Shown in pieces: positions 22,269 through 40,646 of a DNA stretch of 47,072 nucleotides. The position numbers were made by a program, and so were the translations under genes. Within the stretch, counting starts at the first letter, position 1. Each line of letters opens with the position of its first letter. The notes beneath the pieces are model-generated. The model saw only the letters and a program-made list of their open reading frames with translations, made no database searches and was not told the origin of the DNA. The DNA is from Syntrophorhabdaceae bacterium (GTDB lineage: Bacteria; Desulfobacterota; Syntrophorhabdia; Syntrophorhabdales; Syntrophorhabdaceae): assembly GCA_017992765.1 (NCBI GenBank), contig JAGOOA010000020.1:1-47072 (forward strand), written 5' to 3'.

Positions 22269-23779
22269 GCCGTTTTCCTGGCCGGTATTGTGAGGTACAC
22301 ATGTGTACCCTGGGGCTTTCTCAGCACCGTATGCACGGTCCCCCCGTGCGCCTCCATTATCTTCTTTACGTTGGAAAGCCCGAGCCCGGTCCCTTTTTTC
22401 TTGTTGCTGAAAAATGGGTCGAAGATGTAAGGCAGGTCATCCGGGCTTATGCCGGGGCCATTATCAAGGATCTCTATCTGTATCGTCCCTTTGTCTTTTG
22501 CTTCCTGTTTGGTGATAATGATGATCTCGCCGCCTGTCTGCAGCGCCTCGACAGAATTGAGGATCACATTGATTATCGCCTGCTCTACCCTGTCATGGTC
22601 CAGAAGGATGCCGGGGATATCTTTCCCGTATCTCTTTTTCACGCGTATGCCCTTTTCTTTCATCCTCACATCCACGATCTCAAGGCATGAATCGATAATG
22701 CCATGAATGGAGACGGGGTCGAGGTTGATCCTTATGGGTTTCGCAAAGTTGAGCATCTCGTCGAGGATCCTTTCGAGCCTTGACGTTTCGCTGAAGATGA
22801 TCTCCATGCGCCTCTTGTCGTTGCCGTTAAATTCCGTATTCTTAAGGATTATCTGGCTGTTCATCTTTACCGACGACAGGGGGTTCCTTATCTCGTGCGC
22901 CAGGGACGTGGTGAGCTTCCCGATATGGGCAAGGCGCTCGGATTCCCTGATCCTCCGTTCGGTCTCCATCCGTTCCGTAATATCACGGCAGATCCCCGCT
23001 ACCGCTTCTTTGCCCTGGTATATGATGCGTTTTACCTTGTTCTCTGTGGGGAAATGGCTTCCATTCTTGTGTCGCCGGTAATACATATAAAGGTCCCTCG
23101 CGTCCTCCCCGATCATCCTCTGCTCGTAGAGCCTCTTCACCGCATGCAGGTACTTTGGCGCCAAAAGGTCCGTGTACGGCTTCCCGATGATCTCCTGCAG
23201 GGTATACCCGTGGAGGTCGCAGAAGGCCTGGTTTGCGAAGACAATGTTCCCGTCCTGGTTCACAAAATAACCGTCGTTGATCTCCTCGACAAGGACGCGG
23301 TACTTCGCCTCTGATTCCCCAAGCTCTTTCGTCCTTTCCTCCACTTCCTGCTCAAGGTTCTGTGCGTGGTTCCTTATCTGTTTTTCATGGAGAGACTGAA
23401 AGAAGTCGCTGAATTTCGTGATCGTGTAGAAGAGGCATCCGTTCAGCTTCTCCATGGCGCGGAGAAGCTCATCTCCCTTTAGCTCCTTTACCATGACCGG
23501 GAAAAGCGTGGTCCTGTAAAGCTCGTATGCGTGCTGCACCTCTGAGAGTGCAAACCCGCCCCTAAGGCGGATCTGTGAGATCCAGTGAATATGGCAGTCT
23601 ATCTTTGAAAAATCATTATCGATAAGGACCGCGCAGCTTGCATCATACGCCGCGGCGACGGTAATGTAAAGTTCATCCCGCGACCGCCTGCTGTAGCGGC
23701 GGCTCACTGCCAGAAGGCGATCGATCCATTCCTCGATGATCCGGTCGCGGTACTTTTTCAGGACCTCAGCGGTATCCAC
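22265..23779 (-). CDS. PAS-domain sensor histidine kinase with RsbR-like N terminus
   Basis: 504 aa, no membrane segments. Residues 1-140 form a helical RsbRD-like sensor region. A coiled coil (QNLEQEVEERTKELGESEAKY) leads to a PAS domain (about 165-280, FANQAFCDLHGYTLQEIIGKPY). The kinase core follows: H-box SLAHEIRNPLSSVK with phospho-His, N-box NVILNSVEAL and G-boxes DNGPGI and GTGLGLSNVKKI. It is cytoplasmic and probably senses a soluble ligand or redox state. The start is GTG with a weak ribosome site. Confidence 0.9.
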   Translation of the reverse strand: MDTAEVLKKYRDRIIEEWIDRLLAVSRRYSRRSRDELYITVAAAYDASCAVLIDNDFSKIDCHIHWISQIRLRGGFALSEVQHAYELYRTTLFPVMVKELKGDELLRAMEKLNGCLFYTITKFSDFFQSLHEKQIRNHAQNLEQEVEERTKELGESEAKYRVLVEEINDGYFVNQDGNIVFANQAFCDLHGYTLQEIIGKPYTDLLAPKYLHAVKRLYEQRMIGEDARDLYMYYRRHKNGSHFPTENKVKRIIYQGKEAVAGICRDITERMETERRIRESERLAHIGKLTTSLAHEIRNPLSSVKMNSQIILKNTEFNGNDKRRMEIIFSETSRLERILDEMLNFAKPIRINLDPVSIHGIIDSCLEIVDVRMKEKGIRVKKRYGKDIPGILLDHDRVEQAIINVILNSVEALQTGGEIIIITKQEAKDKGTIQIEILDNGPGISPDDLPYIFDPFFSNKKKGTGLGLSNVKKIMEAHGGTVHTVLRKPQGTHVYLTIPARKTA

Positions 23780-24959: not shown

Positions 24960-25814
24960 TCAGGCAACTTCCTTTTCCTTCCCCTTTCTGACCACGGCCC
25001 TTTGCCCTTCGGGTAGGGGCGGCGGTACCGCCTCGCCGACGATCTTCGTCACGGCGCGGAACTTTGGAGGGCATACCTCAAAGCATGTCCCGCATTTTAT
25101 GCATTTGTCCTGATCGACAATGTGCACCTGGCCCTTGGCGCTTATGATCGCCTCCACGGGGCATCTCCTGGCGCAGGTCATGCAAGCCTGGCACTTCTCC
25201 GGGTCAATGTAGTAAGAAACTACTTCTTTAAACAGCTGATCAACCTCTTCTTTGGTGAAGACCTCTTCATACTTCTCATATTCTTCGTGGCCTTCGAGGC
25301 GCGTTGCCAGCTTCTCCCGTTTCGCTATCTTAAAATAGGGCGTCAGCCTTGTAACCTCTGCGAGCTTTGAATGCAGCCTATCCTGGTCCATCCCTTCCGC
25401 TGTGCCGAGCGGCCCCATCTCCTTTATCTTCTTCACAAAATCGTTGACGCTTTCGACAAAAACGTTTGCCTCGGCGCCGGACATGAACCTGATCCTCAGT
25501 CTTTCCGGGTTAAGCCCTATATGCTCCAGTATCCTCCGATAAAGAAGGACCATGTTAAGCGTATGGTAGTTCCCGTGCGTAACATAGTTGCATTCGCCAA
25601 GATGGCAGGCGCCGATAAATACCCCATCGATTCCCTTTGAAAAGGCCCTGATGATAAATTCCGGATCAACCCTTCCGGAACACATGACGCGAATGATCCT
25701 CATTTCAGTGGTATATTGCAGTCTGGAAACTCCAGCCAGGTCAGCAGCTCCGTACGCTCACCAGTTGCATGCGAAGCCGAGCACTTTCGGTTTGAACTTA
25801 GATCCTGAACTCAT
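24960..25814 (-). CDS. bamF: BamF-like MvhD/FlpD electron-transfer subunit, selenoprotein
   Basis: 284 aa if TGA at 25758-25760 is read as selenocysteine (residue 19). Starting at ATG 25814 after GGAGG, the protein reads FKPKVLGFACNW-Sec-AYGAADLAGVSR and continues in frame into MRIIRVMCSGRVDPEFI. Homologues have CNWC or CNWU here, the [2Fe-2S] site of the FlpD domain that receives electrons from HdrA. Other conserved cysteines are MCSGR and GACHLGECNY. Two [4Fe-4S] motifs (CQACMTCARRCP, CIKCGTCFEVCP) follow at about 208-250. In class II benzoyl-CoA reductase complexes BamF works with BamE. It starts 33 bp after bamE. Reading only from 25703 would lose the first 37 residues. Confidence 0.88.
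25723..25735 (-). promoter_or_regulatory. Candidate bacterial SECIS hairpin in bamF
   Basis: Beginning 23 bases after the UGA, CUGGA and UCCAG form a perfect 5-bp stem with loop GUU. Bacterial SECIS elements place a GU in the apical loop some 16-37 bases after the UGA, as here. Confidence 0.6.
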
Positions 25815-25847
25815 GCGTTTCCACCTCCTTTTTCCATAATCCCGGCT

Positions 25848-28800
25848 TTATTTGCCGGCCGCTGCATCGATCTGCCCGATGATATCTTCTTCCGGGACGA
25901 TTACATCGACCTCGGCCAGCAGCTCTTCGTCGGTAAAATGCTTCAGTGAAATAGCCCCTGTGGGACACTTCGAGTTGCAGAGGCCGTCGCCTTTACAGAG
26001 GACAGGGTTTATCGTCGCCTTCTTTCCCTGTTTTGTATCGTAAAGGTCCAGGGCGCCATAGGAACAGACCTCAACGCATGCCCCGCACCCCATGCACCTC
26101 TTCTCGTCGATCTCACAAACAGAGCCTGAGGCTACGACGATATCATTTGCGAGAAGGGTTAACGTCCTGCCGGCGGCCCCGTAAGCCTGGTTGACCGTTT
26201 CCTGTATGAACTTCGGATAGTGGGCCAGCCCGCAGAGGTAGACGCCGTCCGTCGCAAACTCGACAGGTCTTAATTTGACATGGGCCTCCTTGAAGAAGCC
26301 GTCTAAGCTCAGCGTCACCTTGAAGAGATTGGCGATCTCTTTTGTCGCTGCCGAAGGGACAACGGCGGCAGCCAGTGCGACGATGTCGGCGTCGAGCTCA
26401 AGCTTCTTGCCGAGGATATAATCCGTCGCGGTCACCTTGAGAACAGGCCGGCCGTCCTCTGCCTTGCCGGGCTCCACCACGGGCGGATCCTCCGGCTCGT
26501 AGCGTATGAACCTTACGTCCTTGCCTGCCGCTTCCCGGTAGTGATCCTCTTTGAACCCGTAGGTCCTTATGTCCCGGAAGAGGATATAGACGTCCATCGC
26601 TGGGTTCTTCTCTTTGAGCAGAAGCGCGTTCTTTATGGACTCGCTGCAGCATATCCTGCTGCAGTAATTCCTGTCCTCGTTCCTGCAGCCGACGCACTGG
26701 ATCATCACGAGGCTCTGCGCCTTCGCGACCTTTTCGTCCCCGTTGAAGATCTTCTCTTCCAGCTCAAGGTGGGTCATGACCCTCTCGTCCTGCCCGTAGA
26801 GGTATTCGGTGGGCGTATAGAGGTCGGCGCCGATTGCAATAACGGCTGCGCCGTGCTTTATCTCCGTGATACCCCGGTCAGACTTCACCGTAGTGACGAA
26901 GTTCCCCACATATCCCTTTGCCTCCGTAATTGCCGCATCGGTATACACATGTATCAAGGGGTGCCTGTAGATCTTTCCTGCGAGGTCGCGCAGGTAGGCC
27001 TGAACATCCAGCCCCTCAAGGGTGGTATGGATCTTCCGCGCGATCCCGCCGAGGTCGCTGTCCTTTTCGATGAGGTAGACCTCATGCCCCTGGTTGGCTA
27101 TGGAGAGGGCGCTGGTCATGCCGGCTATGCCTCCTCCTACCACCAGTGCCCTCTTGTCGACGGGCAGGTCAAACTCCTGCAAGGGCTTCAGGTGGCACGC
27201 GCGGGCTACCGACATCCGTATTATATCGTGGGCCTTTTTAGTGGCCTCTTCCTTTTCTTTTGCGTGGACCCAGGAGTTATGCTCCCTGATGTTCGCCATC
27301 TCGTAGTAGTACTGGTTGATCCCCGCCTCCCTGAGGGTGTCGCGGAATAACGGCTCGAGGGTCCTGGGGGAGCATGCAGCGACAACCACCCGGTTGAGCC
27401 CCTTTTCCTTTATCATGTCCGTTATCTCCTTCGCGGAGTTCGTGGCACACGAGAAGAGCTGTTCCTGCGAGTAGACGACATTGGGCAAGGTCTTGCAGTA
27501 TTCGACCGTTCCGGGGACATCCACTATCCTTCCGATATTTGCCCCGCAATGGCACACAAAGACGCCTATCTTCGGCTCCTCCTGCGAGACGTCCTTTTCT
27601 TCCGGATATATCCTCTCCTTGGCAAGGTTCCCCCGTCTGTGCTGAAGGAGCTCGCCGATCTGTGAGCTTGCCCCGCTGGCGCTGAAAACCGACTCGGGGA
27701 TATCGATGGGGCCCTGTAGGGCGCCGCTCACAAAGACCCCGGGCCTGTTTGTTATCATGGGATTGACGGGGTCAAGGTTGCTGAACCTGTGCGCGCTGAG
27801 TTCAATGCCGTATTTCTTTGCTATTTCTTCTACGTCCTTAGGGGGATTCATTCCGATCGACAGCACCACCATATCGAACTCTTCTTCTTTGACCCCGTCG
27901 TCCGGGGTAGAATACCGTACGGTCACATTCTTCGTTACGGGGTCCTCTTTTACTATGGACGTGTAGCTTCTGAAGAAGCGAATGCCGGGAAGGTTCTCGG
28001 TCCTCTGGTAGTAGCGCTCAAAGTCCTTCCCGTAGGAACGGACGTCGTTGTGGAATATGGTGCACTTCGCCTCTGCGTCGTGGTCCTTCGTCAGGATCAC
28101 CTGCTTCTGGGTATAGGTGCAGCATACGGCCGAGCAATAGCTGTTGCCGCCTTCGATAACCTGCCGGGAACCAACGCACTGGATCCATGCTATGTTATGG
28201 GGATGCTTCATGTCGGATGCCCGGAGTATCTCGCCGGCATAGGGGCCCGTGGAGCACAAAAGCCGCTCGAAGTCCATGCTCGTCACCACGTTCTTGAACT
28301 CCCCGTAGCGATACTCCTCCCTTACCTTCGGATCAAAGGGCTCAAAGCCCGGGGAAAGAACTATGGCTCCTACATTTATTTCCTTCTTCTCCGGCTCTTG
28401 ATTGAAATCTATGGCATTATTCTTACAAACCGCCTCGCAGATGCGGCATTTCTTCTCTTTCAGGTAAAGACAGCTCTCATCGATATATGTGATAAGCGGA
28501 ATCGCCTGAGCGAAGTATACATGGACAGCCTTGTTCTTCGATATCTCCTGGTTATATTGATCAGGGTACACTACCGGGCAGTATTCAACGCAGGTAGTAC
28601 AACCAGTGCATTTGTCTTCCAGGATGTACCTGGGCTTTTTCGTTATTGTTACCTTGAAGCTTCCCGCCTCACCTTCCACGCTGTTGACCTCTGTGTAGGT
28701 GAGAACCTCTATGTTTGGATGCCGGCCGACCTCGACCAGTTTAGGTGCGAGTATTCACATCGAACAGTCGTTGGTCGGAAAGGTCTTGTCGAGCTGGGCC

Positions 28801-28985
28801 ATGTGACCTCCGATGCTCGGCGCCTTTTCAACTAAGTAAACCTTAAAGCCGGCGGTGGCAAGATCAAGAGATGCCTGGATGCCGCTGATGCCCCCTCCGA
28901 CAACCATGACGTCCCCGAAATTACCGCCTCCAAGATTCTTACAAAGTTGCTGAATATTGTCTTTGAGCGATATTACGTTATCCAC
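25848..28985 (-). CDS. bamE: BamE-like double HdrA flavin/Fe-S subunit, selenoprotein
   Basis: 1045 aa if TGA at 28755-28757 is read as selenocysteine (residue 77). GTG 28985 follows GAGGTGAT. The first HdrA unit has [33 protein letters not shown][12 protein letters not shown] and a ferredoxin motif [13 protein letters not shown] second HdrA unit starts near residue 610 with [16 protein letters not shown], and two [4Fe-4S] motifs ([24 protein letters not shown]) end the protein. In HdrA the residue replaced here is a cluster-ligand Cys, and Sec there is known in some archaeal and bacterial HdrA. BamE is the proposed FAD electron-bifurcation/confurcation subunit of class II benzoyl-CoA reductase. 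Without readthrough the frame would break into 76 and 943 residues. Confidence 0.9.
28722..28739 (-). promoter_or_regulatory. Candidate bacterial SECIS hairpin in bamE
   Basis: Beginning 16 bases after the UGA, CUGGUC pairs with GGCCGG (four Watson-Crick or better pairs plus G-U pairs) around a GAGGUC loop. The loop resembles the AGGUCU loop of E. coli fdhF SECIS, and its GU lies about 25 bases after the UGA. Confidence 0.65.
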
Positions 28986-29020
28986 TTTCTATCACCTCAT
29001 CAGATTTTTTGTGGCCCTGT

Positions 29021-29821
29021 CTAATTCCTTGAACAGCCAAGCCTCTCCGGGTGGGTGAACACCGCCAGGCTATTGCTGCGCACCTGGCCGACCAGGGCGA
29101 TGCCCATATCGCTTGCAAGCGAAATTGCCCTCCCCGTCGGCGCATGCCGCGAAACAACGATCGGAACCTCCATCTTTGCCGCCTTGAGCAGCATCTCAGA
29201 CGAGATACGGCCGGTGATCAACAGCAGCCGATCCCTCGACGATATTCCCCTCAGCAAGCATTCTCCCTGTATCTTATTCAGGGTATTATGCCGTCCGATG
29301 TCCTCAGCTACAATGAGCAGCTTCTTTGTATCGGACAGGGCTGAAGTGTGCACTCCACCGCTAAGCCGGTACAGTTCCATCTGAGCCTGAAGCTCTTTCA
29401 TCAGCGACAGCACTTCCATCGTCGTAACGACAAGATCAGAATCTACCTTCCGGCCTTGATTCTCGAAAACTCCGCCGCCGCCGCAGCCCGTGGCCAGCGT
29501 CTTCACCGTCGGCGGTTCATATCCGGCGTTGGAAAGCGTCACGTCGGCCAGCGAATCATCCTCGCAGACCCGCATTATCGCCACATCGCCGACGCCTGAG
29601 ATGATCCCCTCTGCATAGAGGTACCCTATGACAAGATAATTAAGCTTCGCCGGAGTGCACAGGATGTTTACCAGCGCCCGGTTATTGACATAGATCGTGA
29701 GCACCATCTCGGTAGGCACGTGAGCCGGAGTCCTGGTCCATCCTCCATCGTCCGAAAAGCGGTCGCATACTATCTCTGCCGCGACACCTTTTATATTCGT
29801 TAAGCCGGTTGTTTCCTGCAT
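29021..29821 (-). CDS. fdhD: FdhD-family sulfurtransferase inside the bam operon
   Basis: 266 aa. Recognisable FdhD segments are PTEMVLTIYVNN, NYLVIGYLYAEGII, TLATGCGGGGVF, LSGGVHTSAL, AEDIGRHNTLNKIQGECLL and VSRHAPTGRAISLASDMGI. FdhD transfers sulfur from a cysteine desulfurase to the Mo/W-bis-pterin cofactor of formate dehydrogenase. The Cys loop here has one cysteine (TGCGGGG), not the CxxC of E. coli. No formate dehydrogenase is in the window. Its place between bamD and bamE suggests a role in maturing the tungsten cofactor of BamB, which is inference. Confidence 0.88.
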   Translation of the reverse strand: MQETTGLTNIKGVAAEIVCDRFSDDGGWTRTPAHVPTEMVLTIYVNNRALVNILCTPAKLNYLVIGYLYAEGIISGVGDVAIMRVCEDDSLADVTLSNAGYEPPTVKTLATGCGGGGVFENQGRKVDSDLVVTTMEVLSLMKELQAQMELYRLSGGVHTSALSDTKKLLIVAEDIGRHNTLNKIQGECLLRGISSRDRLLLITGRISSEMLLKAAKMEVPIVVSRHAPTGRAISLASDMGIALVGQVRSNSLAVFTHPERLGCSRN

Positions 29822-29839
29822 GTCTCGCTTCTTCGTCCC

Positions 29840-30991
29840 CTACAGCACTTCCTGTATGATCTCTGTGATGTCCTTGACTTCTATATCGTCGGCATGATTC
29901 GTGACCAGCCTGCTGTCCTCAAGGGCGGTGATGCAGTAAGGGCAGGCGGTAGCCAGCACCTGTGCCCCAAGCTCAATGGCCTGCTCAACCCTGATATTGG
30001 AGAACCTTTCATGCTTCTCCGTTTCCGCCCAGACCCTGCCTCCCCCCATTCCGCAGCAGAGGCTGTCTGTGCGCGCCTCGGGCAGATCGACCAGCTCAAG
30101 GCCGGGGGCCTTCTTTAAGACGTCCCGGGGCTCGTCATATACACCGTTATGCCGTCCCAGATAGCACGGGTCATGATAGGTGACCTTCTTCGCATACTCC
30201 TTTGAGAGCTCAAGCCTCCCCTCATTGACGAGCTGGAACACATACTGGGAGATGTGGATCACTTCGAAGTTCACATTGAACGCCGGGTACTCGTTCTTGA
30301 AGGTGTGGTAGCAGTGCGGGGAAGAGACGAGTATCTTCTTCACCCCGTTGTCGATGAAGGTCTTGATGTTCTCTTTCGCCAGCTTTCTGAATACTTCCTC
30401 GTTGCCTGTCTTGCGGATGCTTTCCCCACAGCAGTTCTCCTTTTCACCGAGGATCCCAAAATCCACGCCTGCCTTGTTGAGGATATTGGCCGTTGCCTGC
30501 GCCACCTTCTTCAACCTCGGGTCATAGCTGCAGTAGCAGCAGGGAAAATAAAGGATCTCCATCCCCTCTTTAAAGGTCTTTACGTTCAGGCCCTGCGCCC
30601 AATCAGCCCTTGTCTTCCGGTCTTCGTTGAAAGGGTTGCCTTGCGCCGTCAGCCCTGAGCTTATTGCGCGGTAAGGCTTGACGGAGCCGTGAAAAACGCC
30701 GTATCCCGTGGCCATCCTCCGCAGGGCTATCATGTCGTCTATCTGCTTTACGTCCCTGGGGCACCGCTGAGGGCACTTGCCGCAGGTGGTACAGCGCCAG
30801 ATATCCTCGCGCTCTATCTCGCTCAAACCGAACGTGGCCTCCCGGATGAGCTTGCGCATGCTGAAATTTCTCACCTTGTTCCAGGGGCACACGGTATCGC
30901 ACTTTCCGCATTGATAACAGAATTTGACGGGGTCTCCGCCTTTCTCTTTTACCTCGTCTATTACCTCTTTAAAGGGGGCTATGGTTTCCAC
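29840..30991 (-). CDS. bamD: BamD-like HdrD/CCG-domain Fe-S electron-transfer subunit
   Basis: 383 aa. Two ferredoxin-type motifs at the N terminus (CYQCGKCDTVCP and CTTCGKCPQRCP) are followed by two CCG domains: CCYCSYDP...ENCCGE (about 152-190) and YHDPCYLGRHNG...SLCCGMGGG (about 272-318). This is the HdrD/GlcF/BamD architecture. In the class II benzoyl-CoA reductase it passes electrons between BamE and BamC/BamB. The start is GTG after AGAGGAT. A 97-bp gap with a repeat-like sequence separates it from bamC upstream. Confidence 0.88.
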   Translation of the reverse strand: METIAPFKEVIDEVKEKGGDPVKFCYQCGKCDTVCPWNKVRNFSMRKLIREATFGLSEIEREDIWRCTTCGKCPQRCPRDVKQIDDMIALRRMATGYGVFHGSVKPYRAISSGLTAQGNPFNEDRKTRADWAQGLNVKTFKEGMEILYFPCCYCSYDPRLKKVAQATANILNKAGVDFGILGEKENCCGESIRKTGNEEVFRKLAKENIKTFIDNGVKKILVSSPHCYHTFKNEYPAFNVNFEVIHISQYVFQLVNEGRLELSKEYAKKVTYHDPCYLGRHNGVYDEPRDVLKKAPGLELVDLPEARTDSLCCGMGGGRVWAETEKHERFSNIRVEQAIELGAQVLATACPYCITALEDSRLVTNHADDIEVKDITEIIQEVL

Positions 30992-31088
30992 GATCGTTCA
31001 ATCCTCTTTTTTTACTGGTTGTTTATTTCTCTTGTTAGCTGCCTTTTTTTGCTTCTTACCTCTCACTTTTCACCATTCACTGCTTTTT

Positions 31089-31628
31089 TCAGTCTTTCTG
31101 CGAGATCCGGGAAACGGTATCCATGACCTTCTGCAGGCCGTATTTGTTTATCATTGATTCCAACCCTATCTCCACATCCTCTACCTTTACCTCTTCGTCC
31201 ACTTCTTCTTCCCTTTCTTCATAGATCAGGGCATCGTTGAGGCACCATTCAACACACAGGGGCTTTTCTCTTGGCGGGTCGTCTTCGCACATATCGCATT
31301 TGAGAGGAAGGCCGGAATCGGGCTCTTTGAACGCGTCCCTTGACGGGCAGGCAGCCCTGCAGAAGCCGCACTCGTCGTATTCCTTCCCGTCAATAATATA
31401 TTTGTCCCTGCCCATACATTCGGCCGCAGTATACTCGCCTGCATATACGGGAACGTAGACGTCTCGCATCGGGTCGCGTATCATCCGGATGCGGGACCGC
31501 GCCGGGTTATTGCTGCTGTATTTCGGGTTGGCGTGAAAGGCTGAGCAGATCACTTCGCATGCCCGGCAGCCATTGCATTTATCAAGGTCGACTTTGATTG
31601 TTTTGATCTTCTTTTTAATCTTAGCCAT
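31089..31628 (-). CDS. bamC: BamC-like polyferredoxin subunit
   Basis: 179 aa with ferredoxin cysteine groups in the order CNGCRACEVIC (about 18-28), CGFCRAACPS (about 86), CDMCEDD and CVEWCLNDAL (about 109-128). This is the pattern for three [4Fe-4S] clusters of the BamC/DMSO reductase B type. The C-terminal 45 residues are acidic. It overlaps the end of bamB by 8 bp, fitting a tight BamB-BamC pair, as in the purified Geobacter enzyme. Confidence 0.88.
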   Translation of the reverse strand: MAKIKKKIKTIKVDLDKCNGCRACEVICSAFHANPKYSSNNPARSRIRMIRDPMRDVYVPVYAGEYTAAECMGRDKYIIDGKEYDECGFCRAACPSRDAFKEPDSGLPLKCDMCEDDPPREKPLCVEWCLNDALIYEEREEEVDEEVKVEDVEIGLESMINKYGLQKVMDTVSRISQKD

Positions 31629-33585
31629 TTTTTATTATCCCTCTCTGTTCTAAGTCTTCGGCAACATAGCCCAGATCTAATTCCTGCAAGGTCTCTTTCT
31701 TGGGAACGCCTTCATTATCCCATCCCTTGAATTTGTAGTAGGCATCCAAAAGCTGGGCTTCAAGTTCGGGAAATCGTTTTTTCCAGTGGTCCTCAGGCGG
31801 CACCTCATCGGCCCTTCTCAACCCTCTTCTGACATTTACCGCCCTGAGCAGATTCCGGTTCCTCCTGTATATCTTCTTGAGGCCTTCCTCGTCCATATCT
31901 ATCCCTGTTGCTGCCGAGATGATCTTCGGATAATTGTGAATATGATAAGGGGGCTTAAGAGGAAAAGACGATAAACCCGCACATACCCCGAGGGCATCGT
32001 CAAAGTAATGTATCATCTCCTGCCAGTCGACGATGTCAACGGACATGTCAATGGTAGGATAATACGGGTTTGAGCGCTCTCCGCGAAATTCCCAGTCAAG
32101 GACGATCTGTTTAAACTTTTCGTCAGGAACCTGGATCCAGTCGCTGATAAATTCCTGCCTCTCTTCCATGGTAGCAAAAGGCGACTGGGGGAACTGCCCT
32201 TCGATCTGTGTTATATTTATCTTCTCGCCCGTCGCATACATAAGGTAATAAACGGGGTTCAGCATCCCGAGTTTAAGAGGAAGCTGCTCATGCTTCTTGA
32301 TGTTGTTGTGGGCAAATTGTTCTGCACCCTTTCCGATCTTCTGGGCCGCCCAATGGGTGCCGTCGGCCAGAATGTCTCCTATCCCTTCCCTGCGAACTAT
32401 CCTGTCGAGCAGCCAGTAGAATTTCCCTTCGTTATCGGACGGGCATCCTTCGAAATCCGCATCGGTCAGAATACCGGCCTCTCTCAGCTCAAATGCAAAT
32501 GCCATGATCTGCGGGGTTGAGAACCCGTCCACTCCGTACTCCGTAGCACGCTGAGCGATCTTGAAGCCAAAATCCAGGTCGTCTACAAAGGCTGCCATTG
32601 TATAGGTAAGCTTCGAGAAGCACTTCATCATGTAGGTCGAAAGCCCCGGCACGGAAATGATCGCCCCGCATTTCATCGGGCAGTTATAGCAGCTTATCAA
32701 CCGCTTCCGCACATTCAGCTGGACACTTTTCCATCGCTCTTCGATCTCCTTATTCCAGAAGTCTTTTCGACGAACGCGGGAATTGCCCCACATGAAATTT
32801 TCGGTGTGCCACTTCTCATCGACGTGCAGCATCTCCTGCGGCGATCCAAGCCCCTGCAGAATGGTCATTACGTTGGGAACAGGATTGTCGTTCCGGAATT
32901 TTATATATTTCAGCACCTCGTTGCAGAGCTCTATGAACTCAGCCGGTCTGGCCAGGTTGACGTCCTTTGTACCGCGGACAGCTATCGCCTTTACCCCTTT
33001 GTCTCCCATAACGGCACCCAGCCCAAGCCGACTGGCACTGGAGCGGCCCTGTTCGATAGATGCGGTAAATACCCTGTTCTCACCGGCAAGGCCGATAGCG
33101 GCCACCTGCGCATTCGGCTCGTTCAACTCCTTCCGGATAAGCTCCTGCGTCTCGACAGCGCCTTTACCCTTGAGGTGGCTGGCATCCCGTATCTCCACTT
33201 TGTCATTGTGTATCCATATATAGACCAGGCTGGGCGACTTGCCGCGAAGGATCACTTTGTCGTAACCTGCATACTTCAATTCCGGCGCCCAGAAGCCTCC
33301 CATCATTGAATATCCCATTAATAAGGTCTGGGGGGAATAGGCGGTTATAATAGTACGGTTCGCGCCGGGGGCAGGCGTACCACCCAAAAGTCCTGTGCTG
33401 AAGATCAATGGAATTTCCGGCGCAAAGGGGTCGATCTCAGGGGGAACCCTGCTCCATAATATCTTCGTGTTCGTGCCTAACCCGCCAAGATGAAGTTCGG
33501 TGTCTCTGGGATCAGTCTCTACCCTCTCAATATTTCCCTTGGTTAGATCAATTTCTAAATTAAACCCTGTTTCTCCGTACCTCAT
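31621..33585 (-). CDS. bamB: BamB-like class II benzoyl-CoA reductase active-site (W-pterin) subunit
   Basis: 654 aa of the aldehyde:ferredoxin oxidoreductase family, the same length as BamB. It shows GGLGTNTKILW, GYSMMGGFWAPELKYAGYDKVIL and SRLGLGAVMGDKGVKAI. The Fe-S ligands LISCYNCPMKCG are near residue 300 and DALGVCAGLSSFPLKPPYHIH near 533. BamB carries a tungsten-bis-pterin and reduces benzoyl-CoA to cyclohexa-1,5-diene-1-carbonyl-CoA without ATP. It is the first gene of bamBCD-fdhD-bamEF. A paralogue acting on a substituted or polycyclic aryl-CoA is possible. GAGGAG precedes the ATG. Confidence 0.9.
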   Translation of the reverse strand: MRYGETGFNLEIDLTKGNIERVETDPRDTELHLGGLGTNTKILWSRVPPEIDPFAPEIPLIFSTGLLGGTPAPGANRTIITAYSPQTLLMGYSMMGGFWAPELKYAGYDKVILRGKSPSLVYIWIHNDKVEIRDASHLKGKGAVETQELIRKELNEPNAQVAAIGLAGENRVFTASIEQGRSSASRLGLGAVMGDKGVKAIAVRGTKDVNLARPAEFIELCNEVLKYIKFRNDNPVPNVMTILQGLGSPQEMLHVDEKWHTENFMWGNSRVRRKDFWNKEIEERWKSVQLNVRKRLISCYNCPMKCGAIISVPGLSTYMMKCFSKLTYTMAAFVDDLDFGFKIAQRATEYGVDGFSTPQIMAFAFELREAGILTDADFEGCPSDNEGKFYWLLDRIVRREGIGDILADGTHWAAQKIGKGAEQFAHNNIKKHEQLPLKLGMLNPVYYLMYATGEKINITQIEGQFPQSPFATMEERQEFISDWIQVPDEKFKQIVLDWEFRGERSNPYYPTIDMSVDIVDWQEMIHYFDDALGVCAGLSSFPLKPPYHIHNYPKIISAATGIDMDEEGLKKIYRRNRNLLRAVNVRRGLRRADEVPPEDHWKKRFPELEAQLLDAYYKFKGWDNEGVPKKETLQELDLGYVAEDLEQRGIIKNG

Positions 33586-33642
33586 GTTCTGCTCCTCTGG
33601 TTAATCTTTTCAAGTCTGTTTTATTCTTTCAAACTTGTGCTT

Positions 33643-33671
33643 AATTTAACAAATCGGATGGTCCTTGTCAA
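33643..33671 (-). promoter_or_regulatory. Sigma70-type promoter of the bam operon
   Basis: On the minus strand, TTGACA (33666-33671), a 17-base spacer and TAAATT (33643-33648) lie about 58 bases before the bamB start. The -35 is perfect and the -10 matches four of six bases. Confidence 0.7.
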
Positions 33672-33680
33672 GCGGAATAA

Positions 33681-33692
33681 TGAAATAATTCA
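33681..33692 (-). promoter_or_regulatory. Operator-like palindrome upstream of the bam -35 box
   Basis: TGAAATAATTCA has TGAA/TTCA half-sites, 9 bases upstream of the -35 box. It is one base shorter in the middle than the three sites before the class I operon. Confidence 0.4.
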
Positions 33693-33781
33693 CAAGCTTA
33701 ACAAACCAATTCCCGTTTTTACGGCCATACCATGCACATCTTCACAAATAGGCCGCAACTTTTTGAATCTTAAGGGCTTAT

Positions 33782-34537
33782 TTAAAATACGAACAGGTCG
33801 AGGCCCCCCATCATGTTCACAACAGCGCCTGTCATATAGTCGCTGGAGACTGCAAAAGCCACCGCATCGGCGATCTCCTGAGGCGTCGCAGGCCTGCGGA
33901 CGGCGGTCTTCTTCTCGACCTTTTCGCGAACCGGCTCCGGGAGGTTGAAATAGCCGTCGGTCGCAGATATGCCGATCAATACGCAGTTTGCCGTTATGTT
34001 GAAACGGGCGCCTTCGAGGGCCGCCGATTTTGCCAGCGCGATCAGGCCTGCCTTTGCGGCGCCATAGCTCGTCTGCCCGGTTCCCCCGAGGACTCCGGCG
34101 ACAGAGGTCATGTTAACGATGCGCCCCCACTTGTTGGCGCACATATCTTCCCATGCCTCCTTGATGCAATAGAATGCGGAATTGAGGCAAAGTTTGACCT
34201 CATAATCCCATTCCTCGATGGTGGTCTTGGTTATGCTGATATTATGTCCCATCAGGGCTGCGTTGTTTATGAGGATGCTTACTGGCCCCATCTCCGCCTT
34301 GATGGCTGCGAAGGCCTTCTGAACGCTCGGGTAGTCGCTAGCGTCCATCTGGACCGCCATGGCCTTCCTGCCGAGGGCCTTGATCTCGTCCGCAAGCTTC
34401 TGGGCTCCATCCATGTGGTGAAAACCTGTTACCACCACATCTGCTCCCATTTTCGCCAGCGAAAGGGCGGAAAATCTCCCGATGCCTTTTGGCATTGACG
34501 CTCCGGTTACCAATGCAAGCTTACCTTCTAATGACAT
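33782..34537 (-). CDS. Short-chain dehydrogenase/reductase
   Basis: 251 aa from ATG 34537, chosen because AAGGAGGG lies just upstream; a longer frame to 34597 has no such site. The cofactor loop is ALVTGASMPKGIG, the structural motif NNAALMG, and the catalytic set is NMTSVAG plus SYGAAKAG (Tyr and Lys). It would oxidise or reduce a hydroxy/keto group with NAD(P). The substrate is unknown. Lying between the class I and class II reductase operons, it may act on a ring-derived hydroxyacyl-CoA. Confidence 0.85.
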   Translation of the reverse strand: MSLEGKLALVTGASMPKGIGRFSALSLAKMGADVVVTGFHHMDGAQKLADEIKALGRKAMAVQMDASDYPSVQKAFAAIKAEMGPVSILINNAALMGHNISITKTTIEEWDYEVKLCLNSAFYCIKEAWEDMCANKWGRIVNMTSVAGVLGGTGQTSYGAAKAGLIALAKSAALEGARFNITANCVLIGISATDGYFNLPEPVREKVEKKTAVRRPATPQEIADAVAFAVSSDYMTGAVVNMMGGLDLFVF

Positions 34538-34592
34538 TTCTCCCTCCTTGATGTTCACAATTTTTATATATTCGCTCACCCTTTGGCAAGAG

Positions 34593-34631
34593 ATCAATTA
34601 ATCTATATAGCACACCCTCTACAGGGGTTGT
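34593..34631 (-). promoter_or_regulatory. Weak candidate promoter of the SDR gene
   Basis: On the minus strand TTGACA overlaps the tetR stop, and TATATA follows 19 bases later. The spacing is long, so the call is tentative. Confidence 0.3.
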
Positions 34632-35248
34632 CAATCTTTTGCGATCGATCCACCACCGTCGGCGGCGCCGCCTCTCAATGCGTCGATCAGTATCCTGCTC
34701 ACCTGCTGGTGCTGTTCCAGGATATCGTATTGTGCATCTTTCAGGAGCCAGCGGCTCACCATGTGTTCAAGAATGCCCAGAACCAGGTGGCGAAGCACAT
34801 AGATGTCAACATCCGTTCTGATGACGCCCTCCTTCTGCCCTTCTTCAAGTATGTCCCACACTGAACGCACTGATTGTTTGAGAAAGTCGTATGTCTCCGT
34901 CTTGGCAAAGCTCCTGTTCACCCGCAGCTCAAGCATCAGAAGCCTTCCGTAATCGGGGTTTGTCTTAAAGAAATAAAGAAAGTACCATACGAATTTCCGG
35001 ATCTTGTTGAAGACCCCCGAGATCCCTTCCAGGTGCAATGCTGCCTGGCTGCGGAATTCGTTCGTTTTCTCGACAGGGATAGAGAAGAAGAGGTCTTCCT
35101 TGTTCTTGAAATACTGGTAGATGGTTCCATTGGCAACACCAGCCCTTTGGGCTATTTCAGAGATGCCTGCGCTCTGAAAGTCTTTCTTGCTGAAGACCTC
35201 AATAGCTGCCTGGATGATGTCTTCTCTTCTGGCGACCTTTTTATGCAT
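34631..35248 (-). CDS. TetR family regulator (FadR-like)
   Basis: About 205 aa from ATG 35248; an in-frame TTG at 35263 would add five residues. The N-terminal HTH reads IIQAAIEVFSKKDFQSAGISEIAQRAGVANGTIYQYFKNKEDLF. The C-terminal half is helical (VWYFLYFFKTNPDYGRLLMLELRVNRSF), like TetR regulators of fatty or aromatic acid degradation that release DNA on binding an acyl-CoA. It lies 39 bp after the second ATPase gene of the class I reductase operon. It is probably co-transcribed and may control the sites at 39.49-39.65 kb. Confidence 0.85.
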   Translation of the reverse strand: MHKKVARREDIIQAAIEVFSKKDFQSAGISEIAQRAGVANGTIYQYFKNKEDLFFSIPVEKTNEFRSQAALHLEGISGVFNKIRKFVWYFLYFFKTNPDYGRLLMLELRVNRSFAKTETYDFLKQSVRSVWDILEEGQKEGVIRTDVDIYVLRHLVLGILEHMVSRWLLKDAQYDILEQHQQVSRILIDALRGGAADGGGSIAKD

Positions 35249-35287
35249 GGCCTGTGTGCCCAACGCCTTCTGTAAAGATCGATCTAC

Positions 35288-36163
35288 TCAATTATGCCGG
35301 CTGCCGCTGGCCGATGCGTCGGATTCCTGCCGCTTGCAGAAACCATCGGCATACAGGGCTGCGCCCAGGGCCGGTATCAATGCAGGATCCCATTCAGGGC
35401 CGGGGGCCAGCCTGCCTGCCTTCAGGATGCCTTCCACCAGGCTGACTATTCCTGGATTCCTGGCCAGCCCTCCAATGATGACAAAATCCTTCTTCATGCC
35501 CAGCCTGTCTACCAATGTGCTGATCCTCCTGGCCATAGCGTAGTAATAGCCCGCTATCAGCTGTTCTATCGGTACCTTGCTCCGGATCAGATCCAGCGCT
35601 TCGGACTGCGCGTATACGGCGCAAAAATCGCTCAGCTTTGGAAATTTATCAGACCGGAGCGCGATCTCCGCCGTCTCAGCCATGTCTTTCCCGACCAGGC
35701 CTCCGAACGCCTCCATCGACCTTCCGATGCCCGCTGCGCATTTGTCGTTCCAGAGGAATGCCGTTGCCCTGCCCTTTTCGGTACAGTGAATTACCCTGCA
35801 GCTTTGCCCCCCGGCATCGAGCACCGTACGGACCGACGGGCCACATACCCGCAGCGCCCCCGCGGCGGCGCATGCGATCTCCGATACCGCCTTATGTGCA
35901 AAGGTCGCCTGCGCGCTCCCGCGGCCGGTCGCGACGATGCAATGGATATTCTCCGGCTTTAAACCGGTTCCGTTGAGAGCCCCGCTCATAGCATCCAGGG
36001 CCGATCCTTTGGGCGTCCCGGTCGTCACCTGAGAAGATGCATAGGGTTGCCCGTCAAGCAGCAGCAGCGCCTTGGACGTCACCGCCCCGATATCGACGCC
36101 CGCCGCGATCACCTTGGCCTTTTTCCAATCCAGTTTTTTATTCATTGAAATATGCCCGCTCAT
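35288..36163 (-). CDS. Class I benzoyl-CoA reductase ATPase subunit (BcrD/BzdQ-like)
   Basis: 291 aa of the BadF/BadG/BcrA/BcrD ASKHA ATPase family. The phosphate loop is AAGVDIGAVTSKALLL, followed by GRGSA, VLDAGGQS and GGLARNPG. Cysteines in NDKCAAGIG and DFCAVYAQSE would hold the [4Fe-4S] cluster shared across the ATPase dimer. It couples ATP hydrolysis to low-potential electron delivery to the catalytic subunits. It overlaps the upstream paralogue by ATGA. At this length it resembles the shorter ATPases of the Azoarcus (Bzd) type. Confidence 0.87.
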   Translation of the reverse strand: MSGHISMNKKLDWKKAKVIAAGVDIGAVTSKALLLLDGQPYASSQVTTGTPKGSALDAMSGALNGTGLKPENIHCIVATGRGSAQATFAHKAVSEIACAAAGALRVCGPSVRTVLDAGGQSCRVIHCTEKGRATAFLWNDKCAAGIGRSMEAFGGLVGKDMAETAEIALRSDKFPKLSDFCAVYAQSEALDLIRSKVPIEQLIAGYYYAMARRISTLVDRLGMKKDFVIIGGLARNPGIVSLVEGILKAGRLAPGPEWDPALIPALGAALYADGFCKRQESDASASGSRHN

Positions 36164-36954
36164 CTTCCACCTCCGTAACTCACTACAGCGCCTATTGCGC
36201 CCACATACTCAGGAAGGCTCACCACGCTCACCTCTCGTTCTATCAGACGCTGAAGGTGGTTAATGACCGCTTGAGACCTGGCCAGCCCTCCGGCTACCAC
36301 GATCTCTTTCGTAAGGGGCATACAGGTGGACATGGCGGCAACGCGCTCGACCATGAACCTGGTGACGGCATCTGCTACATCCGCAGCGTCCGCGCCCTGG
36401 CACATAAGATCAATGGCATCCGATTCGGCGGAGAGGGCGCACTGAATGGCAACAGCTATGCTCTTTGTCGACTTAAGCGCCAGCCGGGACAGCTCTTCCT
36501 CGCTAACCCCCAGCAGCTTCGCCATACTCGTGTAGAAGATGCCCAGGCCGTCGGCGCATTTGTCGTTTTGAATGACGTCCAGCAAATCCCCGTTCTGGTC
36601 ATAGCTCATCGCCTTATGTACGTTGCCGCCGATATCGATGACCGTTCTCGAGTTGCCGTTGAGGAAAAAAGCCCCTTTTGCATCCGCTACGTATTCGGGC
36701 ACCGATGCGGCCGCGTCAAGAGCCGGCGCCTTGATGGCATCCCTGAATATCCCCGTGGCGACGATGCCGTTCAGTTCGCCTCCGGAAATGCCTGCACCTT
36801 TCAGGGCATCATTTAACGCTGCCCGGGCCGCCGCCGCCGGATCACATGCCGTGGGGACCGCGGCATAAGCAAGGATCTCCCTGCCCTTCATTATTATGGC
36901 CTTCGTATTGATGTGGCCCGCATCCAGTCCAGCGAGAAGTTTTCCGTTATTCAC
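36160..36954 (-). CDS. Class I benzoyl-CoA reductase ATPase subunit (BcrA/BzdP-like)
   Basis: 264 aa of the same ASKHA family, clearly diverged from its neighbour. Motifs are LLAGLDAGHINTKAIIM, VATGIFRDAI, VIDIGGNVHKAM, NDKCADGLGIF and VAGGLARSQAV. The first cluster cysteine is kept in NDKC; the second site reads IQCALSAESDAI. Two different ATPases are the hallmark of class I aryl-CoA reductases, since 2-hydroxyacyl-CoA dehydratases use one homodimeric activator. It overlaps genes on both sides by four bases. Confidence 0.87.
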   Translation of the reverse strand: MNNGKLLAGLDAGHINTKAIIMKGREILAYAAVPTACDPAAAARAALNDALKGAGISGGELNGIVATGIFRDAIKAPALDAAASVPEYVADAKGAFFLNGNSRTVIDIGGNVHKAMSYDQNGDLLDVIQNDKCADGLGIFYTSMAKLLGVSEEELSRLALKSTKSIAVAIQCALSAESDAIDLMCQGADAADVADAVTRFMVERVAAMSTCMPLTKEIVVAGGLARSQAVINHLQRLIEREVSVVSLPEYVGAIGAVVSYGGGR

Positions 36955-38117
36955 GGCGTCACCCCCTTTATTATTTCAACGAGCGCGTCCAGCTGCGCCC
37001 GAAATTGAGCTTTTGGCACGGTGGTATCAAGCTCAAGCTCCGTCGATGGGATTCCCAGCTTATCGACGATGGGTTTCAGCGCTACGACGTCCATCGGCTG
37101 AGGGCTGCAGAACCTCTGGTAGAGGAACACCACCCCATCAGGCTTGAAGTCCTCGATGAACTGCTGAACGAACCTGAACCTCTTTTTTTCGCCGGTCCCG
37201 GGGACGGTATCCTTTGCGGGACAGGGGATCTTGCCGATGTATCCCTCGGCGAGCGCCTTAAGCTTATCCGGCCTGCCCTCGGGCACCTCGAACCAGAAGT
37301 ACCTGGCGGCCGTACAGGAATCAATGAAGATAAGGCTTGCGTCATAACTCAGATGTTCCATCAGGTCGAAGATAACCATGTCGTCGCAGGCGCCCCCCGT
37401 AACCATCAGCCGAACCCCCGGCGCCGCCTTGCCGGGCCCGGCCTCCAGCCTTTCGATCAGCTGCTCCAGCATCTCATTGCATTCCTGCTTGTCCATAACC
37501 TGAGAGGCCAGTGTCGCGGCGGCGACATCCGGGCCCGTTATGGGCGGTCTGTCATGCCTCAGGAACTCCCAGAGGTGCTTGAGGAGCCTCCGGTTGTGGT
37601 TATAGGCCTTGATCGCATCCTCCAGGTCGTTGTCCGTTACCGGCTTTTTTGTAAGCTTCTCGACGAATTCTCTGAACTGTGCAAAAGACTCTGTCATGAA
37701 CCCGCCGGCAGGCTTCGTGTGAATGATATGAGGGTACTGCATGAGGTAGCTTCTGTCCTGGAACCCCGCGAACCTCACCCATACGTTGAACGCTTCGCCC
37801 ATATGGATGCAGCTGCTGCTCGTAACGATCAGGTCCAGGTGATCATAATTGCCCTGCAGCCCCTGGTAGGCGCAGTCATGGGAAAAGGAGCAATACGTTT
37901 CATGGATATAGCCCCTCGTCATTGCCTGAGACTCATGGGACGTAAGGATCCTCAACGGTACGATCCCTGCCGCATAGAGGATCTCCTCCGGGACATGGGT
38001 GCACATATATCCTGCCAGGAGCCGCCCTTTCGCCTTAAGGGACCTGGCGTATTCTGTCGTATTCTCCGTTATATGGCGAAACCGTTCGATTATCGCATCT
38101 GGGCCCTTTTTCTCCAT
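36951..38117 (-). CDS. Class I benzoyl-CoA reductase catalytic subunit (BcrC/BzdN-like)
   Basis: 388 aa of the HgdB/BcrC family. The N-terminal GYMCTHVPEEILYAAGIVPLRI is a family hallmark carrying a cluster-ligand cysteine. Further cysteines occur in SSSCIHMGE, GGACDDM and YQRFCSPQPMD. With the 438-aa partner it forms the Fe-S heterodimer that binds aryl-CoA. The length fits BcrC (about 386 aa). It starts 3 bp after its partner gene and overlaps the ATPase gene. Confidence 0.87.
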   Translation of the reverse strand: MEKKGPDAIIERFRHITENTTEYARSLKAKGRLLAGYMCTHVPEEILYAAGIVPLRILTSHESQAMTRGYIHETYCSFSHDCAYQGLQGNYDHLDLIVTSSSCIHMGEAFNVWVRFAGFQDRSYLMQYPHIIHTKPAGGFMTESFAQFREFVEKLTKKPVTDNDLEDAIKAYNHNRRLLKHLWEFLRHDRPPITGPDVAAATLASQVMDKQECNEMLEQLIERLEAGPGKAAPGVRLMVTGGACDDMVIFDLMEHLSYDASLIFIDSCTAARYFWFEVPEGRPDKLKALAEGYIGKIPCPAKDTVPGTGEKKRFRFVQQFIEDFKPDGVVFLYQRFCSPQPMDVVALKPIVDKLGIPSTELELDTTVPKAQFRAQLDALVEIIKGVTP

Positions 38118-38120
38118 CTG

Positions 38121-39437
38121 TCATGCACCTCCTTTCTTATGCGCTTCCATGAGATGTACGAACAACTCCGTTTTCCGCTGGGCGCCCGGCAGGTCCATTT
38201 TCCGGACATCTACCTGGTCGGTATCGTATTCAACGGTCGGGATCTGGTTTTTGAAGATACGCTGCATCGCTATATAGCCGTTCCTGAAATCCGTTTCGCA
38301 ACTGCGGGAAGGCGCAAGCAAAAGCCCGTCGGCCTTATACTCTGTCACCATCGCCTTGGCCATCTCTTCAAGCGCCCAGTACGATCTCACCCCCTGCCAG
38401 GTTGGCCAGCCCAGGACTATTTTAGCCAGCTCGGTTATGGCCTTTCTTCTCGTTGACAGGTCAAGCTCGTCGACCCAGGCAGGGTCTATGGGTTCCCACG
38501 TCCACTTTCCGTTGACGATCCCCTTGAAGTTGCCGCAGGTGCCGAATGTATAGACCGAGGCTACGATCTCGGCCCCGACGTCCCTCAAGATCCTCGCCAT
38601 TTCCGGATGGCCGTACGTGTGCGCTATCCCGAAATAGACTATCCTGAAGCGCTGGTCCGGCGCCACGCTCTCCCCTGTCTCGACCATGTGCTTCACTTCT
38701 TTCAGCAACGTCTCGTATATGCGCACGCTTTCATCGGTCGTCCTGTCCACAACGGCCGGCGGGAACAAGGCTATAAGCCTCCGCTCATCCAGCGGCGCCG
38801 GGGAATGCATGTTGAGAGCGCATATATTGCCCCACAGGACAAGCACCTTGATCTCGTTCCTCACCGCCTTGACAAACAGCTCGTCGGAAAACTCCCTGCC
38901 GGTCACCCTCTGGAGCCACTCTATGCCGGCCTCTATCTGGTTGGAGACGTAGTTGACGATCTTCGGGTCTTTCTCCGCATTCCCCCCGCCGACCATGTCT
39001 ATCGCATACATCGGCACGCCGCCCAGGCGCCTCGAGACCTCCTGGTACCACTTTGAATGCTGGCTGCACAGGTGCGTGGTCCAGATCACGTCCGGCCTCG
39101 GATATCCGTCCTTGATCGTTTTATCGGTAATAGCCATTTTGTCGCGGATCACCTCGCCGACGAACAGCTTGAGGTAGCTGCACGAGTGAAACCCAAGGCC
39201 GCCGGTCTCAGCGGCGATAATGTCCTCGCGGCACTCTGCGGGCACCGTCCCTGCCGCTGACGCCGAGTGAGGTTCGCCGCCTATCACGCGTATGTCTTCG
39301 CCCAGCCCTTTAAGGGGAGCGAGCGGGCTCCAGGTAGAGCCCATGCATCGCAGGCCACCCGAGGCATAGAGATAGTCCCTGTAGCAGTTGTTCTGGTAAT
39401 TCTTTACTTCGCCCCACGTCGTTATGTTGTATGCCAT
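38121..39437 (-). CDS. Class I benzoyl-CoA reductase catalytic subunit (BcrB/BzdO-like)
   Basis: 438 aa from ATG 39437, fixed by an AGGAGG site upstream; a longer frame from 39464 is unlikely. It is a second HgdB/BcrB-family protein with SGGLRCMGSTWSP, GLGFHSCSYLKLFVGEV, WTTHLCSQHSKWY, FGTCGNFKG and LLLAPSRSCETD as cysteine sites. Its length matches BcrB. It is the first gene of the four-gene operon and follows a strong promoter with an operator. Confidence 0.87.
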   Translation of the reverse strand: MAYNITTWGEVKNYQNNCYRDYLYASGGLRCMGSTWSPLAPLKGLGEDIRVIGGEPHSASAAGTVPAECREDIIAAETGGLGFHSCSYLKLFVGEVIRDKMAITDKTIKDGYPRPDVIWTTHLCSQHSKWYQEVSRRLGGVPMYAIDMVGGGNAEKDPKIVNYVSNQIEAGIEWLQRVTGREFSDELFVKAVRNEIKVLVLWGNICALNMHSPAPLDERRLIALFPPAVVDRTTDESVRIYETLLKEVKHMVETGESVAPDQRFRIVYFGIAHTYGHPEMARILRDVGAEIVASVYTFGTCGNFKGIVNGKWTWEPIDPAWVDELDLSTRRKAITELAKIVLGWPTWQGVRSYWALEEMAKAMVTEYKADGLLLAPSRSCETDFRNGYIAMQRIFKNQIPTVEYDTDQVDVRKMDLPGAQRKTELFVHLMEAHKKGGA

Positions 39438-39489
39438 CTCAACCTCCTGTCCAAAATATATCAATATCTTCTTTGGTTGGTATCAATAT

Positions 39490-39502
39490 TGAATATGATT
39501 CA
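39490..39502. promoter_or_regulatory. Operator copy 1 (TGAAT-N3-ATTCA)
   Basis: TGAATATGATTCA is a perfect inverted repeat of TGAAT with a 3-bp centre. It abuts the -10 box of the class I reductase promoter on the downstream side, a classical repressor position. Confidence 0.65.
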
Positions 39503-39531
39503 TTTTTATTATTTTAAAGACCAGATGTCAA
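39503..39531 (-). promoter_or_regulatory. Sigma70-type promoter of the class I reductase operon
   Basis: On the minus strand, TTGACA (39526-39531), 17 bases and TAAAAA (39503-39508). The expected start of transcription falls inside operator copy 1, about 60 bases before the first gene. Confidence 0.65.
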
Positions 39532-39565
39532 GTATTTTTTCTTTATTTTAAGCCAAATATTATAT

Positions 39566-39578
39566 TGAATATAGTTCA
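39566..39578. promoter_or_regulatory. Operator copy 2
   Basis: TGAATATAGTTCA matches copy 1 with one broken pair. It begins 76 bp upstream of copy 1. Confidence 0.55.
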
Positions 39579-39637
39579 TGTTACGATACAAATAACCTGC
39601 GCAAGCCGGGTTGAATACCCTATTGGGTCATAAAATA

Positions 39638-39650
39638 TGAATTATGTTCA
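39638..39650. promoter_or_regulatory. Operator copy 3
   Basis: TGAATTATGTTCA has the same half-sites as copy 2. It begins 72 bp from copy 2. An ACCC-TATT-GGGT palindrome lies between them at 39617-39628. Confidence 0.5.
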
Positions 39651-39710: not shown

Positions 39711-40646
39711 CTATTCTACATAGGGGCATTTCTTGTTCTCACGGATAAAGCTGCAATCCTTTCCGCAGGGCTCCATCCTGATGGACACTTCGCTCTCGGC
39801 GATAAGCGAATCGATATCCTTTTTAATATCTGAGATCACCGAATGGCCTTTTTTCAGCTGGATGTGTTCAGGCATAATGATATGGAGGTCTATAAAGCGT
39901 TTTCTCCCTGCCGTCCGGGTCTTCAGTTCTTTAAAATTGCAGTATTTGTCCATGTGCCTTGCAAGGACCTTTACGACATCCATCTGCCCGGACTCCTCGA
40001 TGGAGGCATCGAGAAGCTTCATGAAGGCTTCCCTGAGGAGACGGACTGAAGGGACCGCGATGATGCCGCTCACAAAGAGTGTGGCACCGGGGTCGATGTA
40101 ATTGACCACCTTGTCAAGGCCCAGACGCGTAGCGATTATTATCAGGAGAAATGACAGGGTGATCGCTGAAGAGATGTATCCCTCGAGCTTGAAATGCAGC
40201 CCTTCTGCCTTCAATGCAGGAGAGGCGCTTTCCTTCGCCAGCTTCAGTATATAATAGGATCCCCAGAAATTGATGGCCACGCCGGCAATGCTGCATATGA
40301 ACCCTACCAGTGGGGCCTTCACCTCTTCCACCCTGATGATGTGCATGACGGCCTGAAAGGACATGGCAAGGGCAAGGCCCACGAGAACCACCCCTTCGAT
40401 CACCTCCGACACGTTCTCGATCCTTCCGTATCCGTAGTTATGAAGAAAGTCTGCAGGCTTGTTCGAGATCTTGATCGCATAGTAGAGGATGACCGAAACG
40501 GCAAGGCCCACGAAGGATATCCCAAGGTCAGCCGCTATCGCCAGAGAATCGACTATCACGAGAGCGACCACCTTTATGATGCAGAGGGCTATATTCGAGA
40601 ACAGGCTTACCTTCACGGCAAGCATCATATAGTGGTCTTTATTCAT
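39711..40646 (-). CDS. Cation diffusion facilitator (CDF) family exporter
   Basis: 311 aa with about six membrane segments (first 220 residues) and a cytoplasmic C-terminal domain. The metal-site motif on helix II is in LAIAADLGISF, and a related site HNYGYGRIENVSE fits the HxxGxxR-E pattern after helix III. The C-terminal domain has DLHIIMPEHIQLKKGHSVI. It ends in an unusual Cys-rich tail (EPCGKDCSFIRENKKCPYVE). The family exports Zn, Fe or Mn by proton exchange; the metal is not readable. AAGGAC precedes the ATG. Confidence 0.87.
   Translation of the reverse strand: MNKDHYMMLAVKVSLFSNIALCIIKVVALVIVDSLAIAADLGISFVGLAVSVILYYAIKISNKPADFLHNYGYGRIENVSEVIEGVVLVGLALAMSFQAVMHIIRVEEVKAPLVGFICSIAGVAINFWGSYYILKLAKESASPALKAEGLHFKLEGYISSAITLSFLLIIIATRLGLDKVVNYIDPGATLFVSGIIAVPSVRLLREAFMKLLDASIEESGQMDVVKVLARHMDKYCNFKELKTRTAGRKRFIDLHIIMPEHIQLKKGHSVISDIKKDIDSLIAESEVSIRMEPCGKDCSFIRENKKCPYVE

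Follow-up and report, generated by a model that had tools for sequence, protein, structure and literature searches.

To our knowledge, very little is known about how obligate syntrophs regulate the anaerobic degradation of aromatic compounds; most benzoyl-CoA regulators that have been characterised are from Azoarcus, Rhodopseudomonas and Geobacter. We analysed a stretch of 47,072 nucleotides from a Syntrophorhabdaceae genome (contig JAGOOA010000020.1, hereafter the window), in which three short palindromes precede a class I benzoyl-CoA reductase (BCR)-like operon that carries a tetR gene of its own. The locus is best read as encoding a predicted repressor of the TetR family, derived from FadR and autoregulated, that would control an operon for a BzdNOPQ-like benzoyl-CoA reductase.

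A three-copy array in the bzdO promoter gap

All three 13-bp palindromes claimed in the preliminary description were confirmed, and each matches TGAAY-N3-RTTCA (Table 1). All lie in the intergenic gap of 246 bp that separates the bzdO-like gene from a CDF transporter gene. The start-to-start spacings are 76 and 72 bp, which corresponds to 7.24 and 6.86 turns at 10.5 bp per turn; the spacing range of 72-76 bp given earlier thus stands, while the accompanying figure of about seven helical turns is loose.

Table 1. Features of the array, its promoter and the adjoining genes (window positions).
Feature	Position	Strand	Remarks
CDF transporter gene	39711-40646	-	
Candidate operator copy 3	39638-39650	-	TGAATTATGTTCA; operon strand TGAACATAATTCA; 72 bp upstream of copy 2
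Candidate operator copy 2 (distal)	39566-39578	-	TGAATATAGTTCA; operon strand TGAACTATATTCA; 76 bp upstream of copy 1
A-rich stretch TAAAATAAAGAAAAAATAC	39532-39550	-	between copy 2 and -35; AAAAAATAC-TTGACA recurs in relatives
-35 hexamer TTGACA	39526-39531	-	present in 14/14 aligned clade promoters
-10 hexamer TAAAAA	39503-39508	-	several relatives have TATAAA, TATTAA or TAAAAT in the same place
Candidate operator copy 1 (proximal)	39490-39502	-	TGAATATGATTCA; operon strand TGAATCATATTCA
bzdO-like class I benzoyl-CoA reductase subunit	38121-39464	-	likely start ATG 39437 behind GGAGG
bzdN-like subunit	36951-38117	-	
BCR activase subunit, bzdP/badG position	36160-36954	-	
bzdQ-like activase subunit	35288-36163	-	
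tetR, FadR-like (TetR_N + TetR_C_4), predicted array binder	34631-35263	-	possible start ATG 35248
SDR oxidoreductase, likely last operon gene	33782-34597	-	likely start ATG near 34537

Chance palindromes, or an unrelated repeat, would be another explanation, and an A+T content of about 70% makes such words likelier in this gap. However, only 0.0022 TGAAY-N3-RTTCA sites are expected in 246 bp of the local composition (Poisson P for at least three, ~2e-9), and none of 20,000 dinucleotide shuffles placed two sites in one gap. The motif is therefore not one that is common by chance in AT-rich gaps, a weakness that the preliminary description had itself considered. Because the half-sites are also kept in four congeners and the motif is linked to one TetR clade (see below), we regard this explanation as refuted, with a negligible residual probability.

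The genome-wide motif scan proposed earlier was run over all 2.42 Mb and returned five exact sites (reversed control, 0). The two outside the array are both intragenic, in an aminotransferase gene on contig C60 and in a 509-aa ORF on C2, and were rejected as regulon members. A wider search of the genome with WWTGAA-N5-TTCAWW gave no sign of a larger regulon, matching only copies 1 and 3 and one further site on C66. With a scoring matrix derived from other loci, orthologues included, the array copies reach 32.9, 30.5 and 24.5, compared with 9.3 for the next best non-overlapping site in the window and 19.1 for the best site in 2 Mb of random sequence.

Promoter layout and operon

Read along the operon strand, the gap presents copy 3, copy 2, the A-rich stretch, TTGACA, 17 bp, TAAAAA and copy 1, which starts at the very next base after the -10 box (39502). 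Since copy 1 abuts the -10 box, it covers the predicted transcription start, and the earlier claim of an overlap behind a TTGACA-N17-TAAAAA promoter is borne out. The A-rich stretch is presumably UP-element-like.

Judged from its sequence, the operon enzyme is class I BCR-like. Genes for the N and O subunits and two activase subunits are adjacent, as in bzd-type class I systems, and the nearest solved relative of the bzdO-like product is BzdO (8s02, E 3.6e-58); the NCBIfam scores of the bzd genes are below the equivalog cut-offs, so the substrate of the enzyme is not fixed by them. The tetR gene is the fifth gene; a short gap, with no predicted terminator, separates it from the SDR gene downstream. 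The operon thus need not end with tetR, as had been supposed.

Conservation of the array and its linkage to a TetR clade

The array is kept in four congeners (the window genome, L036, L037 and contig C292 of G002) with spacings of 76-77 and 71-72 bp, and the tetR contigs of two more, G001 and G003, are too short to show it. In the four congeners, 29 of 30 half-site columns are invariant versus 113 of 194 (58%) in the rest of the gap (Fisher p 7e-6). Copy 3 was found in congeners only. The bzdO promoters of the more distant relatives L040, L041, L042 and L060 also carry the motif, at a different distance from bzdO in L041 and L042; in L059 it was not found.

When every 4-bp palindrome with a spacer of 0-14 was enumerated without bias, TGAA-N5-TTCA came first in two promoter sets: 12 of 13 regions upstream of tetR genes of the clade (0.20 expected), and six of six upstream of bzdO (0.12 expected). 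Each orthologous bzdO gene examined is preceded by the motif. For the counts given here, overlapping loci of the genome collection were represented by one copy each; the genomes compared are mostly metagenome assemblies, and related promoters are not all independent trials because they share ancestry.

In genomes whose tetR lies outside a bzd operon, it is the tetR gene that has the motif upstream, in most cases immediately after the -10 box. In L064, tetR is the first of a co-directional run that continues with a molybdopterin oxidoreductase gene and then bamB- and bamC-like genes. In L049, a TetR gene of the clade lies downstream in another gene run (CoA ligase, SDR, TRAP transporter, tetR), and the motif precedes the first gene. 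Alignment of 14 clade promoters revealed a conserved TTGACA with the operator start 22-29 bp behind it. The common module consists of a distal operator, ~34 bp with AAAAAATAC or similar, TTGACA, 17 bp, TATAAA or TAAAAA, and a proximal operator, with an operator-operator distance of 76-77 bp. It is found at bzdO in the window, L036 and L037, and at tetR in L064, L065, L066 and L069, as well as in L063, where one site is degenerate.

Scanning 297 genomes for two sites 50-80 bp apart gave matches in 10 and none in the reversed control. These were four bzdO promoters of the genus, four tetR promoters of the clade, the own promoter of one distant TetR, and one unlinked site. At L104 (~1501-1576), two TGAAY-N3-RTTCA sites 63 bp apart surround TTGACA-N17-TATCAT in the same layout, before a TetR gene of 24% identity.

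A different protein, of the MarR, XRE or a distant TetR type, might bind the motif, with tetR merely a neighbour. The array at L104 suggests that similar sites may serve other TetR proteins. However, the motif accompanies members of this TetR clade at unlinked loci and in other gene runs. Moreover, the genome holds no second TetR of this clade; its other TetR homologues match the TetR of the window weakly (the best with 45% identity over 79 residues only), and one of them has a different palindrome of its own. A different regulator is therefore highly improbable. Both the conservation and the way in which the motif follows the TetR clade support the operator function claimed at the outset, and the three palindromes are very probably the operators of the TetR repressor whose gene stands fifth in the operon it would control.

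The TetR protein and the spacing of its predicted operator

Both domains of the TetR protein score above the gathering cut-offs (TetR_N, 60.8 bits against 24; TetR_C_4, PF08359, 58.6 against 21). Its AlphaFold model (pLDDT 86) has an all-helical two-domain fold, with Bacillus FadR as the best structural match (TM ~0.8-0.9). The best PDB sequence matches are also Bacillus FadR (5gp9, 3whb), while the score for the NCBIfam FadR equivalog NF053878 is 128.5, below the cut-off of 200. The protein is thus FadR-like, and the proposed resemblance of the half-site to FadR-type operators holds, with a spacing 5 bp shorter than in the FadR-type site of related TetR genes of the phylum.

We compared the promoters with those of 40 distant TetR homologues of the same phylum (26-40% identical). 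The short motif TGAAY-N3-RTTCA was found upstream of none of the 40, whereas TGAATGA-N4-TCATTCA (at most two mismatches), which we take to be the FadR/YsiA-type site of Bacillus, precedes 18 of them (shuffles, 0) and occurs in none of the 14 promoters of the window's clade. Both sites share the half-site TGAAT, and the spacer measures 3 bp in the window's clade versus 8 bp in the FadR-type site. A protein tree separates the long- and short-operator groups without conflict, with GTIYLYF in the former and GTIY[QK]YF in the latter. The long group was picked for carrying the long site and the short group by relatedness, so that the congruence is partly built in; the counts of 0/40 and 0/14 are the more independent part of the evidence.

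By sequence comparison, the TetR clade of the window has kept the TGAAT half-site in its predicted operator with a shorter spacer (3 versus 8 bp), which is new here. It is quite possible, though short of probable, that in a FadR-related TetR clade of anaerobic, mostly syntrophic deltaproteobacterial lineages the operator changed from TGAAT-N8-ATTCA to TGAAY-N3-RTTCA, a re-spacing by half a helical turn. Such a change would insulate aromatic-ring reduction from fatty-acid control, with a conserved two-operator module placed before class I (Bzd-like) genes and, via tetR-led clusters, class II (Bam) genes.

Two further observations concern related regulators. In a sister clade whose recognition helix contains YQHF (L072, L074-L078), several members have a TGAA-N5-TTCA-like pair 22 bp apart, and ATGAGCG(C/T)AACTCAT lies across the tetR start codon. 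TGAG-N5-CTCA was rejected as a changed operator of the YQHF clade, since it is absent from the deepest member and, in near-identical genes, runs across the start codon. In the window's genome, another TetR gene (192 aa) has AGAATGAACATTCATTCT, close to the FadR-type site, just upstream (L177 1501-1518, equal to C27:1543-1560).

Possible looping between operators

A TetR dimer at copy 1 might also contact one at copy 2 (or 3), forming a DNA loop that bends the A-rich promoter and excludes polymerase. An A-tract does lie between the sites, and the 76-77 bp pair of proximal and distal sites is kept at bzdO promoters and at promoters of tetR genes whose products are ~60% identical, but this spacing may reflect shared ancestry of one promoter module. 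The spacings in relatives (22, 54, 69-72, 76-77 and 90 bp) have no common helical phase (Rayleigh p ~0.9). Helical phasing as a general rule of the array was rejected on this basis, and the looping proposed in the preliminary description is unsupported. Loops of ~75 bp are also generally costly without a bending protein. On balance, we consider a loop rather unlikely.

Proposed regulation and comparison with known systems

For the autoregulated TetR repressor, the position of the operators and the characterised analogues MbdR and FadR suggest a steric block that is relieved by an acyl-CoA. In the absence of substrate, copy 1 would be occupied by a TetR dimer that blocks RNA polymerase at the sigma-70 type promoter, and dimers on copies 2 and 3 would add occupancy through raised local concentration or dimer-dimer contact. 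With the pathway running, an acyl-CoA of the aromatic or alicyclic kind, either benzoyl-CoA or a product of ring reduction, would bind the C-terminal domain and the DNA would be released; this class of ligand is inferred by analogy. As the genes behind the motif differ by lineage, the inducer may differ too. Since tetR lies inside the operon, its level would be under feedback control, and the autoregulatory loop suggested earlier is to be expected.

The protein shares with Bacillus FadR (YsiA), a TetR-family regulator responsive to long-chain acyl-CoA, the TetR_C_4 domain, a very similar recognition helix region and the TGAAT half-site; it differs in that the longer FadR site is absent from the promoters of its clade. 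FadR of Thermus thermophilus HB8 binds a 15-bp site, TTRNACYNRGTNYAA (PMC5597230). This site and TTGAAYNNNRTTCAA are equal in length with a 3-bp centre in both, and the tested consensus TTGGACTTAGTCCAA is one base per half-site off TTGAAC-N3-GTTCAA; a short centre therefore has a precedent in TetR proteins. In contrast, the T. thermophilus protein has fatty-acid genes as its targets, and in the PDB sequence search it matched weakly (3ang, E 1e-7).

MbdR of Azoarcus sp. CIB is an autoregulated TetR repressor of the 3-methylbenzoyl-CoA pathway, with its operator over the transcription start, from which 3-methylbenzoyl-CoA frees it (PMC4424350). The regulator described here would likewise be a TetR protein of an anaerobic aryl-CoA pathway with an operator over the (predicted) start, and, with MbdR-type operon control in mind, the array and tetR were found to flank the bzdO, bzdN, activase and bzdQ genes. 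MbdR differs in its operator, ATAC-N10-GTAT, and is distant in sequence (4uds, E 9e-9); its operator type is not among the enriched palindromes of the tetR and bzdO promoter sets. BzdR of Azoarcus represses bzdNOPQ and is released by benzoyl-CoA (PMC4424350), but this XRE-family regulator is unrelated to the present TetR.

The locus offers a testable pair of regulator and operator, together with a motif for mapping the regulon in uncultured Syntrophorhabdus-like genomes. It also provides a natural case in which two lineages of FadR-like TetR proteins within one phylum share a half-site and differ in operator spacing, concordantly with the protein tree, so that the structural basis of spacing specificity can be tested directly.

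Neighbouring class II genes

Further downstream follow a gene for a BamB-like protein (4z3w, 1131 bits) and genes for proteins in the order expected for BamC-F, these names being inferred from gene order and domains. The class I (Bzd-like, 33782-39464) and class II (BamB and putative BamC-F, 24960-33585) sets adjoin on the same strand. The bamB-like gene has a promoter of its own, TTGACA-N17-TAAATT, at 33640-33700. No strict second operator precedes this gene, just the word TGAATTATTTCA (TGAA-N4-TTCA) upstream of the -35 box, which is kept in 4/4 congeners. Within the aromatic cluster (20898-23779), genes for an AtoC-like sigma-54 response regulator and an AtoS-like histidine kinase are also present and may form a second layer of control.
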